Source of the DNA: Streptomyces parvus
GTDB taxonomy: Bacteria > Actinomycetota > Actinomycetes > Streptomycetales > Streptomycetaceae
Direction: 5' to 3'
Assembly: GCF_014648875.1 (NCBI RefSeq)
Contig: NZ_BMRY01000006.1
Coordinates: 186,001-250,000, forward strand
Length of the DNA stretch: 64,000 nt
Positions 194 through 49,435 of this stretch are shown here, in pieces (the first letter of the stretch is position 1; every line of letters starts with the position of its first letter). A program made the translations under genes and the position numbers. The notes under the pieces were generated by a model that ran no database searches, was not told the origin of the DNA, and saw only the letters and a list, made by a program, of their open reading frames with translations.

Positions 194-841
194 CTACTTC
201 CAGTCGTTGTACGTGCCGTAGCCGCCGGCGTCCGCGAGCTGTTCGGCGACCCCTTCGAGGTCCTCGGGGAGGAGTCCCCAGACGATCAGGTCGGTGCGGA
301 TGTCGGTCCAGCCGCCGTCGGTGCCGTTCTCGGTGCGGGTGCGGGCGATACGGGCGTTGCGCAGGACGCCCTCGCTGATGCAGCCGAGCTTCTGGGCGAC
401 CTGCTGGGAGGCGGTGTTGTCGGCGGGGGTGCGCAGCTCGATGCGTTCGAAGCCCTGGTCGCGGAAGAGCCACTCGGCTATGGCGAGCACGGATTCGGTG
501 GCGTACCCCTCACCGCGGGCCCAGGGGGCGGTGATGTAGCGGACCTCGGTGGAGCGGGTGCGCCAGTCGGTGTTGAGGAGGCGGACGCTGCCGACGAGCC
601 GCTGGGTGAGGAACTCGGTGACGGCGAGGGCGATGCCCTGGCCGCCGGTGCGTTCCGCGGGGGCGACCCTGCGGACCCAGCGTTCGGCGTCGACCTGGGT
701 GTACGGGTTCGGTCCGTCCATCCACGCGACGACGGCCTCGTCGTTCATCATCTCGATGTACGCGGGGATGTCGGCCATCTCGAAGGGGCGCATCACCAAC
801 CTGTCCGTGCTGATGGAGATGGACGGAAAGGTGGTAGTCAT
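194..841 (-). CDS. GNAT family N-acetyltransferase (RimJ/RimL type)
   Basis: A 215-residue protein opening TTTFPSISISTDRLVMRPFEMADIP, the usual first strand of RimJ/RimL-like acetyltransferases (TxRLxLRP). Later segments such as GYATESVLAIAEW (acetyl-CoA pyrophosphate-binding loop region) and NTASQQVAQKLG complete the GNAT fold. It would transfer acetyl from acetyl-CoA to an amine, but the substrate is unknown. The ATG at 841 was chosen because GGAG sits 8 nt upstream and the fold starts there; an upstream in-frame ATG at 919 would add 26 poorly conserved-looking residues. It is monocistronic, lying between cobL and the metNIQ terminator. Confidence 0.85.
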   Translation of the reverse strand: MTTTFPSISISTDRLVMRPFEMADIPAYIEMMNDEAVVAWMDGPNPYTQVDAERWVRRVAPAERTGGQGIALAVTEFLTQRLVGSVRLLNTDWRTRSTEVRYITAPWARGEGYATESVLAIAEWLFRDQGFERIELRTPADNTASQQVAQKLGCISEGVLRNARIARTRTENGTDGGWTDIRTDLIVWGLLPEDLEGVAEQLADAGGYGTYNDWK

Positions 842-982: not shown

Positions 983-1849
983 TCAGGACTTGGCCGGGGC
1001 GCCGAAGGCCGGGACGATCGAGCCCTGGTAGGTGTCCTCGATGAACTTCTTGACCTCGTCGGAGTTGAGGAGCTTCGCGAGCTTCTCGACGCGCGGGTCC
1101 TTCTCGTTGCCCTCCTTGACGGCCAGGAAGTTGGCGTACGGGTTGCCCTCGGCCTTCTCCAGGGCGATGGAGTCCTTGCCGGGCTTGAGCTTGGCCTCGA
1201 TGGCGTAGTTGCCGTTGATGACGGCGGCGTCCACGTCGTTCAGGGCGCGGGGCACGGTGGCGGCCTCCAGCTCCTTGAACTCCAGGCCCTTCTTGTCGGT
1301 GATGTCGCTCAGCTTGGCGCTGGTGCCGACGCCGTCCTTGAGGGTGATGAGGCCGTTCTCGGCGAGCAGCTGGAGGGCTCGGCCGCCGTTGGTGGTGTCG
1401 TTGGGGACGGCTATGGTCTGGCCGGCCTTGATGTCCTTGAGGTCCTTGACCTTGTTGGAGTAGAGGCCGAGCGGCTCCAGGTGGACGTCGACGACCGGGA
1501 CGATGGTGGTCTTCTGCTTGGCGTTGAAGTCGTCCAGGTAGGGCTTGTGCTGGAAGAAGTTGGCGTCGACCTGGCCGTTCTGGGTGGCGGTGTTCGGCAG
1601 GACGTAGTCCGTGAACTCCTTGACCTCCAGCTTGAGGCCCTCCTTGTCCGCCAGGTTCTTCTTGACGAAGTTCAGGATGTCGGCGTGCGGCGTCGGGGAC
1701 GCGGCGACGACGAGGGCCTTGGAGGTGTCGGCGTTGGCGCCGGTCTCGCTCTTGGACGCGGGGTCGGAGGACGTACCGCAGGCGCTGAGGCCGATGGCGA
1801 GGGCGGCGGTGGCGGCGGCAGCTGCGGTGATCTTGATGTTCTTGCGCAC
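983..1849 (-). CDS. metQ: Methionine-binding lipoprotein MetQ (NlpA family)
   Basis: Substrate-binding component of a D/L-methionine ABC importer, anchored outside the membrane. The 288-residue protein has a signal peptide with lipobox LSAC (Cys24 lipidated), then a Ser/Thr/Asp-rich linker, then the NlpA domain (VVAASPTPHADIL near residue 48, NFFQHKPYLDDF near 98, IAVPNDTTNGGRAL near 147), all hallmark segments of MetQ. It starts at GTG with AAAGAGGC upstream. It is the last gene of metN-metI-metQ, about 80 bp after metI, and is followed by a strong hairpin. Methionine specificity is inferred from family and operon. Confidence 0.93.
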   Translation of the reverse strand: MRKNIKITAAAAATAALAIGLSACGTSSDPASKSETGANADTSKALVVAASPTPHADILNFVKKNLADKEGLKLEVKEFTDYVLPNTATQNGQVDANFFQHKPYLDDFNAKQKTTIVPVVDVHLEPLGLYSNKVKDLKDIKAGQTIAVPNDTTNGGRALQLLAENGLITLKDGVGTSAKLSDITDKKGLEFKELEAATVPRALNDVDAAVINGNYAIEAKLKPGKDSIALEKAEGNPYANFLAVKEGNEKDPRVEKLAKLLNSDEVKKFIEDTYQGSIVPAFGAPAKS

Positions 1850-1930: not shown

Positions 1931-2602
1931 TCAGGAGGCGGTGCGGCCGCGGCGGGCCAGCAGCCGGACGGTGAGGTCGCCGATCAGCTGGATCACGGTG
2001 ACGATGACGATCAGCAGCGCGACGGTGATCAGCATGAACTGGTTGTCGAAGCGCTGGAATCCGTAGGTGACGGCCTTGGAGCCGAGTCCTTCGCCGCCGA
2101 CCGCACCGGCCATCGCGGAGTAGCCGATGAGCACGATGAGGGTGGTGGTGACGCCGGAGACGAGGGAGGGCAGGGCCTGCGGGAGGAGCACCTTGCGGAC
2201 GATCGTGGGGATGGAGCCGCCCATCGACTGGACCGCTTCGACGAGCCCGTGGTCGACCTCGCGGATCGCCGTCTCGACGAGCCGGGCGAAGAACGGGATG
2301 GCGCCGACGGCGAGCGGCACGATCATCGCGGTGGGGCCGATGAAGGTGCCGACGACCCAGGTGGTGAAGGGGATCAGGGCGATCAGCAGGATGATGAAGG
2401 GCAGCGAGCGGCCGATGTTCACGATCACGCCGATGACCTTGTTCACCACGGTGTTCTGGAGCAGTCCGCCCTTGTCGGTGAGGACCAGCAGAACACCGAG
2501 CGGCAGTCCGCCGACGACGGTGACCAGGGCGGACCACAGCACCATGTAGAGGGTGTCGTAGGTGCCCTGGGTCAGCAGGGGCTGCATTTCGGACCAGGTC
2601 AC
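1931..2602 (-). CDS. metI: Methionine ABC transporter permease MetI
   Basis: Membrane channel subunit of the methionine importer, 223 residues with about five transmembrane helices and the binding-protein-dependent transport fold. The EAA-like loop that contacts the ATPase is visible around EVDHGLVEAVQSMGGSIPTI. The GTG start overlaps the metN stop by 4 nt (GTGA), so translation is coupled to metN. The N terminus MTWSEMQPLL and the region GRSLPFIILLIALIPFTTW are typical of MetI. It works with MetN in the cytoplasm and lipoprotein MetQ outside. Confidence 0.93.
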   Translation of the reverse strand: MTWSEMQPLLTQGTYDTLYMVLWSALVTVVGGLPLGVLLVLTDKGGLLQNTVVNKVIGVIVNIGRSLPFIILLIALIPFTTWVVGTFIGPTAMIVPLAVGAIPFFARLVETAIREVDHGLVEAVQSMGGSIPTIVRKVLLPQALPSLVSGVTTTLIVLIGYSAMAGAVGGEGLGSKAVTYGFQRFDNQFMLITVALLIVIVTVIQLIGDLTVRLLARRGRTAS

Positions 2603-3678
2603 TTGACGGCCTCCTTGGTGATCGCGGCGGGCGTCTGCTCGGGTACGAGGGGGGCCGCGGCGGTCGCGGTGCTCTCGCCGTCGACGACCTCGGCCTGGAG
2701 GCCCTGCTCGCGCAGGAAGCCGATGGGGACGACGTTCTCCTCGAACCGGCCGGGCAGCTCGATGCGCATCCGGCCGATCTGCTTGCCGCCGACGGTGTCC
2801 ATCGCGGCGCCGAGGATCGAGATGTCGATGTTGTACGTCCGTGAGAGCTGGGAGATGACCGGCTGGGAGGCCGACTCCCCCTGGAAGGTGACGTCGACGA
2901 CCGTGCGGTCCGGGCCGGAGGCGGTGCCGCCGACCGGGAACAGCTCGTGGGCCAGTTCGGATCCGGGGGTGGCGAGGAGTTCGCCGACGGTCCCGGACTC
3001 GACGATCCGGCCGCGCTGCATGAGCGCAGCGGAGTCGCAGATGGTCTTGACGACGTCCATCTCGTGGGTGATGAGCAGGACGGTGAGGCCGAGCTGCTGG
3101 TTGAGGTCGCGCAGCAGCTGGAGGATGGAGCGGGTGGTCTCGGGGTCGAGCGCGGAGGTCGCCTCGTCGGAGAGCAGCACCTGGGGGTCGCCCGCGAGGG
3201 CGCGGGCTATGCCCACGCGCTGCTTCTGGCCGCCGGAGAGCTGTCCGGGGTAGGACTTCGCCTTGTCGGCCAGGCCGACCAGGTCCAGCAGCTCCTTGGC
3301 CTTGCGGGTGCGGGCCTGGCCGGAGACGCCGAGGATCTCCAGCGGCAGTTCGATGTTGTCCAGGACGGTGCGGGAGTCCAGCAGGTTGAAGTGCTGGAAG
3401 ACCATGCCGATGCGGGTGCGTGCCCGGCGCAGCTCGGCGCTCGCCCGCCGGCCGCGGCCGGCGAGGGCGGTGAGGTCCTGGCCGGCCACTGTCACGGTGC
3501 CGGAGGTGGGGCGTTCCAGGAGGTTGACGCAGCGGATGAGGGAGGACTTGCCGGCGCCGCTCTGTCCGATGACGCCGTAGACCTCGCCTTCGCGGACGTG
3601 CAGGTCGACGCCGTCGAGTGCGGTGACCTCACGGTCGCGCGACTGGTAGACCTTCGTGAGGCCCGTCGTGGTGATCAC
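2599..3678 (-). CDS. metN: Methionine ABC transporter ATP-binding protein MetN with NIL domain
   Basis: ATPase subunit of the methionine importer, 359 residues. Walker A GQSGAGKSS lies near residues 38-46, the ABC signature LSGGQKQR near 147, and Walker B LLSDEATSALD follows. The C-terminal third (from about residue 260, VVDVTFQGESASQPVISQL) is the NIL domain, which in this family binds methionine and inhibits transport when the amino acid is abundant. The GTG start has a GGAA sequence about 8 nt upstream. It is the first gene of the operon; 220 nt separate it from a leader peptide whose C terminus is rich in Cys and Met. Confidence 0.95.
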   Translation of the reverse strand: MITTTGLTKVYQSRDREVTALDGVDLHVREGEVYGVIGQSGAGKSSLIRCVNLLERPTSGTVTVAGQDLTALAGRGRRASAELRRARTRIGMVFQHFNLLDSRTVLDNIELPLEILGVSGQARTRKAKELLDLVGLADKAKSYPGQLSGGQKQRVGIARALAGDPQVLLSDEATSALDPETTRSILQLLRDLNQQLGLTVLLITHEMDVVKTICDSAALMQRGRIVESGTVGELLATPGSELAHELFPVGGTASGPDRTVVDVTFQGESASQPVISQLSRTYNIDISILGAAMDTVGGKQIGRMRIELPGRFEENVVPIGFLREQGLQAEVVDGESTATAAAPLVPEQTPAAITKEAVK

Positions 3679-3898
3679 AGGGGGTTTCCGTCACTGTCGA
3701 GTGCGCGGCGCGGTGTCCGCCGGGCACGGGGCATTCGTCGAGGAGACTGTTCGGGCTGGTGGGCCGGGTCATGTCTCGGCATGGCTTCGAGCGGCGATCG
3801 GCCGGGAGGCAGCGCATGCGCGGGCGGGCTCGTTCCAGGGACTGCGAACGGCACAGGCTCGGGTCTCGCTTCGGGGCGCGAGGCTCAGGCGGGGGCCC
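3679..3898 (-). promoter_or_regulatory. metNIQ 5' leader between uORF and metN
   Basis: These 220 nt lie between the leader-peptide stop and the metN GTG, with no gene of their own. They contain short GC-rich pairings (for example CTCGC against GCGAG around 3865-3885) that could form alternative hairpins, as expected of an attenuator. I searched for the conserved cores of SAM-I/SAM-IV riboswitches and did not see them. The switching structure itself was not resolved by eye. Confidence 0.4.
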
Positions 3899-3985
3899 TC
3901 AGAAGGCGCGCATTCGACACATACAACGAGCACCGGGCGTGCTGATCGCCTCGGTCGCAAGGGTGCGGCTGCTCGTCGTGGTCAT
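3899..3985 (-). CDS. Leaderless Cys/Met-rich leader peptide (putative attenuator uORF)
   Basis: A 28-codon ORF starting ATGACCACGACG and ending in ...GARCMCRMRAF-stop, 220 nt upstream of metN on the same strand. A -10-like TTTACT (3993-3998 on the complementary strand) sits 7 nt before the ATG, so the transcript probably starts at the ATG and is leaderless. Two Cys and two Met codons within six residues near the C terminus suggest ribosome stalling when sulfur amino acids are short. Leaderless cysteine-rich uORFs acting as attenuators are known in mycobacteria; their use here for a methionine importer is inference. Confidence 0.6.
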   Translation of the reverse strand: MTTTSSRTLATEAISTPGARCMCRMRAF

Positions 3986-4026
3986 GGGCCCAAGTAAAAC
4001 AGACGTGAGGTCGCCGCGATCCCGGT

Positions 4027-4043
4027 TGTCCGCATAGCGGACA
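4027..4043. promoter_or_regulatory. Perfect 7-bp palindrome, candidate activator site for metNIQ
   Basis: TGTCCGC and GCGGACA face each other across an ATA spacer. Measured from the predicted leaderless start at 3985, the site covers about -42 to -58, a usual activator position. TCCGC-N-GCGGA dyads resemble IclR-family sites, and an IclR-type regulator (NdgR) controls amino-acid genes in Streptomyces, but the link is inference. The rest of the gap to the next gene (4044-4281) shows nothing I can name. Confidence 0.5.
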
Positions 4044-4281
4044 GTGCTGGATGGTCGGACGCCCACCTTCCGCTTCAACCGCACACCTTCTCGCGCACGT
4101 CCCTGACCTGCGGAAACGGACAGGATTCAGAAGCACACCCAAGGGCACCCGACCGACCGGTGAGCGGAATCCTGCCCGCCGGTTGTGTTCAAGGCCACCC
4201 TCGCGCGGCCGGGGCGGCGGCCGCCCGTGCGGGGCCGGGGCCGCACGCGGGCGGGCGTTCCGTCCGTAATACCCTCGACTC

Positions 4282-4641
4282 ATGCTTGACGCCCTGACGG
4301 TCGCGGTCGCCGTGACCGCGCTCGCCCTCGCCGCCTGGTGCGGACATGCCGCCTACCGGGACCAGCCGACGAAGGACTGGCATTTCATCGGGATGGCGGT
4401 CGTCTCCGTGCTGGCGCTGGCCCAATTGGTGGTGGGCGTCGTGCAGCTGGCGCGCGGGGAGCGGCCGGAGCAGGGGATGGCGGTGTTCATCGCCTATCTG
4501 ATCGGTTCGTTCGCCGCCGTGCCCGCGGCCGGATTCCTGTCGTTGACCGAGCGGACCCGCTGGGGTTCGGTCACGGTGGCGGCGGGCGCGGTGGTGCTGG
4601 CGGTTCTGGAGGTCCGGCTCTATGACATCTGGGGAAACTGA
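4282..4641 (+). CDS. Small integral membrane protein, unknown function
   Basis: A 119-residue protein of four predicted membrane segments (about residues 3-22, 36-57, 68-86 and 93-111) joined by short loops, with little soluble domain. No catalytic motif is visible. It ends 1 nt before the GTG start of the next membrane-protein gene, so the two are almost certainly co-transcribed and may form one complex. The ATG is followed at once by a membrane segment (LDALTVAVAVTALALAAW). I do not recognise the family. Confidence 0.7.
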   Translation: MLDALTVAVAVTALALAAWCGHAAYRDQPTKDWHFIGMAVVSVLALAQLVVGVVQLARGERPEQGMAVFIAYLIGSFAAVPAAGFLSLTERTRWGSVTVAAGAVVLAVLEVRLYDIWGN

Positions 4642-49045: not shown

Positions 49046-49435
49046 GGATCCTCCTCGGTAGCACCACGCGACCGCCTGGCGGACAGCCGCGTAACGTCTT
49101 ATAACGTCAAGACCAACCGCGCCGGAACCGCAAAAATGCCCCGGACGGGACACAAGGCGAGGCTCCAGGAACTACCGGAACACCGCCGCGGTGAACCGCG
49201 GGGCTATCGGGCGGGCCCATCGTCCGTACGGAACGATGGTCGCCGCCTGACCGGTGACCCGCCGTCCTGAACGGACAGCCAGGTGGGAGATCGGAGCCTC
49301 CACTTGTGGGCCGGGCACATAGATGTCCGGCCGGTCGTTCCACCAGACTACCGCACGATCCCCGGGGCCCGCACCACGGAGGCCGGAGGGACGCCCGCGG
49401 ACGGGAGGGCGGTGGCCTGGCCTTATCGTGTGGGC
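49046..49435 (-). promoter_or_regulatory. infC upstream region with several hairpins
   Basis: A 390-bp stretch without a convincing gene. On the minus strand it holds a near-consensus -10 TATAAG, direct repeats of TAACGTC around 49090-49112, and hairpins: CCGCGG/CCGCGG (49187-49202), CCATCGT/ACGATGG (49218-49241) and a 9-bp stem GGCCGGGCA/TGTCCGGCC (49311-49335). The plus-strand promoter of the next gene lies at its right edge. It may include a structured infC leader or divergent promoter region; which hairpins are transcribed is not known. Confidence 0.45.

Follow-up and report, generated by a model that had tools for sequence, protein, structure and literature searches.

Why would a short reading frame whose last codons specify cysteine and methionine lie in front of a methionine importer operon, and what would its translation do for that operon? 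We considered this question for a 64,000-nt stretch of Streptomyces parvus DNA, referred to here as the window, in which a minus-strand ORF runs from an ATG at 3985-3983 to a TGA at 3901-3899 (28 codons plus stop, 3899..3985) and encodes MTTTSSRTLATEAISTPGARCMCRMRAF. Two Cys and two Met are among its final ten residues, ARCMCRMRAF, and the putative regulatory codons TGT ATG TGT CGA ATG CGC (codons 21-26, 3908..3925, minus strand) include a CGA-ATG at 3911-3916 that is nearly invariant among relatives. Past the leader stop, a gap of 220 nt leads to the GTG at 3678 that starts metN (ABC transporter ATP-binding protein, 2599..3678), followed on the same minus strand by metI (permease, 1931..2602) and metQ (substrate-binding lipoprotein, 983..1849); the best hmmscan matches of the three products were MetN, MetI, and MetQ, each under NCBIfam's own cut-off. 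Directly downstream of metQ lies a GNAT acetyltransferase gene (197-826, minus strand), whose product has a weak likeness to aminoglycoside 6'-acetyltransferases, far under the family cut-off. A first-pass annotation of this DNA had described a 28-codon ORF with two Cys and two Met codons in its last ten, an ATG 7 nt from a -10-like box, and a distance of 220 nt to the methionine importer, all of which were confirmed by reading the minus strand (TTTACT at 3998-3993; metN GTG at 3678). It had further read the arrangement as a ribosome-stalling attenuator that was unusual in being tied to a methionine importer, and it is this reading that we evaluate here.

Results

The leader is an ortholog of S. 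lividans metL

A homologous leader of 28-29 aa, metL (SLIV_29928, MSTTSDRTPATEATTTPGARCMCRRMCAF), sits immediately upstream of metN in the metNIQ operon of S. lividans TK24 and was called an attenuator of metNIQ in 2021 (PMC8079986). The available part of that paper states a leaderless transcription start for metL, describes the peptide as holding "several methionines and threonines," and reports that a typical Rho-independent terminator is absent. The peptides at three of our loci (L180, L181, and L185) are identical to S. lividans metL, and the S. lividans and window leaders are alike in being orthologs before the same operon with no typical terminator, as far as the text of PMC8079986 describes it. 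The element, its leaderless start, and its attenuator reading are, by the same source, already published for one species; in this one respect, the Met-importer attenuator is not unusual. The literature search in open-licence sources found no functional test of metL, and the text of PMC11109978, which came from the Term-seq/uORF literature, does not contain "metN." The 28-mer matched none of the NCBIfam leader-peptide models up to an E value of 1, and no Rfam family matched at the leader by gathering score; the sole Rfam match in the window lies elsewhere and is the Streptomyces small RNA Scr1601 (49131-49339, minus strand, 174 bits).

The reading frame is conserved across the family

The window 28-mer was matched in 183 of 199 Streptomyces genomes by peptide search (E<=1e-3), well beyond what chance would give. 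Among the 16 unmatched genomes, 6 had no MetN at E<=1e-80 and 10 had one; 8 of these 10 carry a diverged leader (L191, L192, L194, L195, L196, L198, L199, and L200), L193 is a contig end with its upstream sequence missing, and the metN start was not found for L197. The Streptomyces loci used numbered 30 plus 80 among the matches listed, with 40 listed places left out, and most of their leaders were drawn by a peptide match together with a loose TEA/TPG motif. That motif step dropped L016, L196, and L197 as false matches and gave no leader for L013, L014, L193, and L195; the leaders of L013, L014, L016, L195, and L196 were found at later steps.

The frame was then assessed from DNA motifs only, with a -10-like element, an ATG, and CGAATG or CGCATG as anchors. 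A promoter-placed ATG followed by CG(A/C)ATG was found at 93 of 98 metN-anchored family loci, and the ATG-to-motif distances fell into 12 lengths between 54 and 135 nt, every one divisible by three. All 93 leaders were open to a stop 2-8 residues past the ATG of the motif; given that the species are related, these 93 counts are not independent trials, and more weight rests on the 12 in-phase lengths. Of the five misses, three still carry a leader (L008 and L017 behind a variant -10, and L267), L258 has the tail alone, and L193 is without upstream sequence. At L258, a tail remnant, CGTATGTGTCGAATGTGTGCCTGA, lies about 190 nt before metN with the rest of the leader and the promoter gone, possibly a natural loss. 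In contrast to the in-phase leaders, the spacing between this motif and the hairpin past the stop was out of phase in 22 of 65 loci. Within the 108 leaders of 28 codons, GCG ACC GAG GCG was kept in 107 (one had GCA at the last codon), the T- and A-ending codons GGT GCT CGT TGT ATG TGT CGA ATG were retained, and the stop codon switched between TGA (65) and TAG (43). The leader ORF is real and, as its kept frame shows, under coding constraint; by the same comparison, the element stays with metN.

The promoter geometry is conserved and an NdgR-like operator is predicted upstream

The -10-like hexamer TTTACT (3993..3998, minus strand; conserved form TCTGnTTTACT) keeps its placement 7 nt from the ATG across the family. 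Given this geometry and the transcription start stated for S. lividans in the available text of PMC8079986, the window leader is presumed to start leaderless. Further upstream lies a 17-bp palindrome, TGTCCGCATAGCGGACA (4027..4043), centered about 50 bp before the presumed start. The pattern TGTCCG-N(3-5)-CGGACA, with at most 2 mismatches of 12, was present in 122 of 130 loci, and the best match began at -57 to -59 in 113 of the 130. The palindrome resembles an NdgR site, with GTCCGCCATGCGGAC in a published ChIP table and GTCCGCTATGCGGAC here on the minus strand standing one base apart, and it ranked third of 63,986 window positions under a matrix built from 18 published NdgR sites. We regard this predicted NdgR-like operator as a lead.

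These observations bear on the possibility that the leader is translated but constitutive, only raising or lowering metN expression through reinitiation or RNA stability, and that control comes from the upstream operator, probably through NdgR. The wide conservation of the palindrome and its third-best rank would fit such an arrangement, as would a SenR site predicted 31 nt before SCO1559 in the available part of PMC4991794. However, metNIQ is absent from the published NdgR regulon table, and a constitutive leader leaves the conserved Cys/Met codons unexplained, so that we consider this explanation quite unlikely.

The Cys/Met tail and a CGA codon are retained while the N terminus changes

The ORF carries regulatory codons of the amino acids relevant to the operon, as expected of an attenuator leader. 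An Arg-Met pair falls within the last eight residues of 161 of 162 distinct leaders (from 208 loci; 98 found by peptide and 64 through metN), the lone exception being L252 (...RMCRCLMCHH). In these 161 leaders, the codon after the last Met specified Cys in 136, Arg in 23 (including the window), and His in 2, and three residues followed Arg-Met in 151, two in 9, and four in 1. The Arg before the last Met was written CGA in 159 of 161, whereas among the Arg codons of seven window genes CGA accounted for 5 of 131, and elsewhere in the leaders for 8 of 485. Tail counts are biased where leaders were drawn by peptide match, including L201-L230, for which the query itself ended RMCCR, and part of the metN-anchored leaders had to hold at least 2 Cys or Met in the last ten residues; in the less biased subset found through metN alone, CGA was present in 63 of 63. 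At least one Cys and at least one Met occurred in the last 12 residues of 126 of 126 distinct peptides, a set partly filtered for RM. Leader Cys codons were TGT in 325 of 519 cases, compared to 1 of 15 in the seven window genes; some leader Cys codons fall in the P1 stem of the RNA fold described below, and past the last Met, outside P1, TGT and TGC were near even (67 and 69). The first-pass annotation had pointed to an RCMCR tail as a feature to look for across Streptomyces and had named a lack of tail conservation as a ground for refutation. Its reading passes this test, as the Cys/Met tail is kept across the family, with the exact RCMCR string less conserved than a terminal Arg-Met(-Cys) encoded with CGA-AUG.

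Between genera, the leader N terminus is replaced and the Met/Cys tail stays. Differing N termini include MTATTNCTPTGTLPAGERAMCRRMCHR (L214, reached via a search with a Kitasatospora leader), MFTTAHISGTAATATGCRCMCRSCQMCRMCGC (L272), and MTANTTAHLTGAMPAGGRGMRCCRMCGC (L239), and the leader of an Actinomadura locus, which belongs to another family (L016), ends GRMCCRRMCDR. At this locus (Actinomadura rubrisoli), the 40 nt past the leader stop, GGGCCCCCGCCTGAGCCTCGCGCCCCGAAGCGAG, are the same as in the window though the leader and MetN have diverged, which may reflect exceptional constraint or transfer of the element.

Outside the family, 22 of the listed loci were examined, with L324 too short. 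In one further family, f17, a short Met/Cys-rich ORF preceded metN in 9 of 17 examined loci, with at most 4 of 200 dinucleotide shuffles scoring as high; some of these ORFs, such as those of L307 and L309, start with GTG, and 4 of the 9 carry CGAATG. The candidates at two f17 loci, L318 and L319, were weak, with 14 and 10 of 200 shuffles reaching their score, and the remaining f17 loci gave no ORF by a filter requiring both Cys and Met, with a Cys-containing ORF seen by eye at L305. Four loci from four other families gave nothing significant in the shuffle test. The ORFs upstream of metN at L309, L310, L311, and L314 are Met-rich and of a different type, with that of L309 ending RVMCRGTRMCGTARMCAMGGMPSMR; this type looks to be a sulfur leader of independent or very ancient origin.

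Given that the Met/Cys tail and the CGA codon stay conserved while the N termini turn over, and that Met/Cys-rich ORFs also occur in f17, Cys and Met look like the sensed residues, rather than the published Met and Thr. The early Thr codons of the ORF are part of the P1 stem or adjoin it, and the fold can explain their conservation without a sensor role.

A further alternative is a peptide that arrests its own ribosome in response to a ligand and not to a starved tRNA. In its favor, arrest beside the stop codon is known for TnaC, and 151 of 161 distinct leaders have exactly three residues past Arg-Met. The residues that would occupy the exit tunnel nevertheless vary widely across genera, and a peptide does not explain conservation at the codon level (CGA and TGT), which makes nascent-chain arrest improbable here, with about the same low standing as a constitutive leader.

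A three-way junction is conserved within the ORF

Folding with RNAfold and an alignment of 85 rows (85 of 112 reference sequences) placed a three-way junction within the leader ORF (3923..3979, minus strand), with closing stem P1 formed by codons 3-5 and 19-21, P2 by codons 7-10, and P3 by codons 11-18; P1 ends at the first regulatory codon. In the alignment, 95.9% of junction cells pair, compared to 25-45% in slid controls. Cells changed on both sides numbered 30 versus 6.9 in shuffles (0 of 500 as high), and covariation was 0.082 versus 0.054 (0 of 500), a shuffle test that is inflated by the relatedness of the sequences. Counted by pair, 5 were changed on both sides versus 3.0 in shuffles (16 of 500 as high), with 14 further pair types versus 12.4 (88 of 500), and six of the eight P3 pairs are invariant and hence uninformative. 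The evidence for a conserved junction, which comes from alignment and folding, is moderate. The overall fold energy of the leader plus 73 nt was ordinary (z of -0.92), and leaders of other genera form internal hairpins ending near the tail in single-sequence folding. Classic switching via the repeated CGAG/CTCG segments was rejected given that, by eye, other genera alter P1 to CGAAC/GTTCG and leave the hairpin past the stop unchanged.

Three-stem junctions are known in riboswitches, which raises the possibility that the junction is a codon-blind, metabolite-binding element and that the ORF is incidental. The junction covaries, and third positions are kept in an RNA-like manner, with T predominating in codon 9, which otherwise varies, as would suit a riboswitch. 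Against this stand the different junction sequences of Kitasatospora and other genera, all with the Met/Cys tail in place, the kept frame (93 of 93), the alternation of TGA and TAG, and the lack of an Rfam family at the leader by gathering score; a riboswitch is, in our view, the least probable of the alternatives to a translated sensor, and a very unlikely one.

No intrinsic terminator was found in the interval before metN

A scan of 3500-4300 found no intrinsic (U-tract) terminator in the interval between the leader and metN; the lone terminator-like site of the scan lies inside the ORF at 3943-3929, with 0.3 expected. No conserved antiterminator or alternative pairing was found either, and the leader region thus shows no mutually exclusive terminator-antiterminator pair. 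The attenuator reading of the first-pass annotation accordingly stands in part: a leaderless leader ORF is tied to metNIQ and its Cys and Met tail is kept, but no intrinsic terminator in the interval and no conserved antiterminator were found.

Past the leader stop, the interval contains a hairpin, CTCGCGCCCCGAAGCGAG (3865..3882, minus strand), whose core, with up to 2 mismatches allowed in 14, was found at 124 of the 130 loci. In the source genome it has one exact copy plus one 2-mismatch site (the reversed control gave 3 such matches), and single copies of its first 17 nt occurred in 25 of the 28 genomes from its own genus, compared to 0 of 268 from other families, with all 25 exact copies in this class sample adjoining metN. 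Exact copies also stand before metN at the Actinomadura locus L016 and in further genera of the family, and the hairpin is missing in several other genera. It is unique in the genome as an exact copy and was rejected as a genome-wide motif. Since its 8-nt loop is conserved as much as its stem, the hairpin is probably more than a pause hairpin.

The untranslated interval as a whole (3679..3898, minus strand) is C-rich and G-poor and could provide a Rho entry region. The skew of C over G was positive in 148 of 148 intervals, with a median of 0.23 compared to 0.04 in the leader and 0.00 upstream. Of 30 upstream intervals in the window (from crude-script gene calls), 1 was as skewed, as were 2.3% of all 220-nt stretches; the best 78-nt C-rich bubble was unremarkable, with 17% of sampled stretches as high.

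A second candidate output involves a conserved block before the metN Shine-Dalgarno (SD) sequence, GCGCACTCGACAGTGACGGAAAC (3684..3706, minus strand), that is partly complementary to the leader tail. In the window, the tail can pair with CGCGCACUCGACA, directly before the SD, through 12 pairs around one mismatch, and this pairing occurs in the minimum-energy fold of the full leader. Pairing between the tail and the metN ribosome-binding site (RBS) was 3 kcal/mol stronger than in base-shuffled controls and equal to that of swapped partners, the latter because both sides are conserved. The RBS window was the best-ranked partner of the tail in 45 of 125 loci, and by eye the pairing is not kept in several other genera. 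Pairing of leader nt 1-30, or of the tail, with the 60 nt past the stop was weaker than in base-shuffled controls and was rejected.

A ribosome on the tail would hold the junction open

We imposed ribosome footprints on 63 usable loci (every second locus) and refolded the RNA. With no ribosome, one P1 pair had a predicted probability of 0.93. This dropped to 0.00 for a ribosome at the first Cys and to 0.10 for one at the last Met, and it was back at 0.81 when the ribosome had advanced by one more codon and at 0.91 when it had reached the stop. The expected tail-RBS pairs fell from 5.4 without a ribosome to 0.0-0.2 with a ribosome on the tail or stop. The hairpin past the stop formed in every ribosome state (0.90-0.98), SD accessibility was nearly unchanged (0.37 to 0.36), and the extra cost of opening the metN start averaged only 0.04-0.7 kcal/mol, with the window itself going the opposite way.

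Judging from sequence comparison and folding, this is the metL leader of Streptomyces, a presumably leaderless uORF on which the translating ribosome probably senses charged Cys-tRNA and Met-tRNA and sets metNIQ expression. In favor of this reading, too, SCO1557-1559 are reported as up-regulated alongside cysteine genes in RNA-seq of oxidative stress and HbpS-SenS-SenR (available part of PMC4991794). Under a shortage of Cys or Met, the ribosome would stall within the tail, at 4-8 codons from the stop; the junction would then be kept open and the tail covered, with metNIQ expressed. When both are ample, the ribosome would run through and leave, the junction and tail would refold, and expression would fall. 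Weighing against this model are the P1 pair that forms again one codon past the last Met, the steady hairpin and SD, the small shift in opening energy, the ordinary overall fold energy, the unremarkable 78-nt bubble, and the Arg that the window has in place of the last Cys of the family tail. Given that the opening energy of metN barely shifts and that several genera are without the tail pairing, termination by Rho within the 220 nt of C-rich, untranslated RNA is slightly ahead as our tentative first choice among the outputs, although we stop short of calling it probable. Hindrance of metN translation by pairing between the leader tail and the pre-SD block is a candidate only, possible and marginally less favored, and an unconventional hairpin terminator ranks behind both as a doubtful third.

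Discussion

The leader described here shares features with several sulfur and amino acid leaders, as far as the available parts of the cited papers describe these. Mycobacterial polycysteine ORFs (Canestrari et al. 2020, as described in PMC9094748 and PMC13236596) are likewise leaderless, short, Cys-rich, and linked to sulfur genes, with translation attenuation described for M. smegmatis. These place Cys runs before cysteine genes, whereas the metL-type leader places mixed Met and Cys before a methionine importer and has a conserved fold in the ORF; its Cys codons mostly alternate with Met and Arg and form no mycobacterial-type run of consecutive Cys codons. Leader ORFs of cys operons in Mycobacterium, Propionibacterium, and Bifidobacterium (Seliverstov et al. 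2005; PMC1262725) are similar to the metL type in having Cys codons near the stop and no terminator hairpin, and the authors of that paper suggested Rho. Unlike the metL-type leader, methionine operons had no conserved RNA structure upstream in that survey, in the part of PMC1262725 available. The Streptomyces trp, ilv, and leu attenuators (PMC8079986 and PMC1262725) also combine a leader peptide with regulatory codons, and several are leaderless; several of them have a hairpin with a U-rich tract, which the metL-type leader lacks.

Compared to the metL paper, which reads Met and Thr as sensed, the conservation in the present comparison points to Cys and Met, and the distribution, the CGA codon, the junction, and the hairpin sequence are not among the points made in the available text of PMC8079986. 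As far as our literature searches show, the breadth of the element, the dual Cys/Met signal, the CGA codon, the ORF fold, the locus-bound hairpin, and the operator lead are new. A more specific model would combine these into an actinobacterial two-amino-acid sulfur sensor that gates a methionine importer by reading Cys and Met together, with a slow-codon pause at the near-invariant CGA before the last Met, an ORF-internal three-way junction that synchronizes ribosome and polymerase, and a terminator-free, probably Rho-dependent decision; in this full form, we offer it as a speculative proposal that is rather unlikely to hold in every part.

In summary, the leader itself is not a discovery, given that its ortholog is on record. 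Our comparison shows that the device is widespread and is tied to a transporter, not to biosynthesis, and it provides a case in which the identity of codons (CGA and TGT) is retained even as the amino acids before them vary. It also makes two questions testable in a laboratory Streptomyces, namely, how sulfur leaders in high-GC bacteria work in the absence of a terminator and whether attenuators are tuned by rare codons that are conserved.
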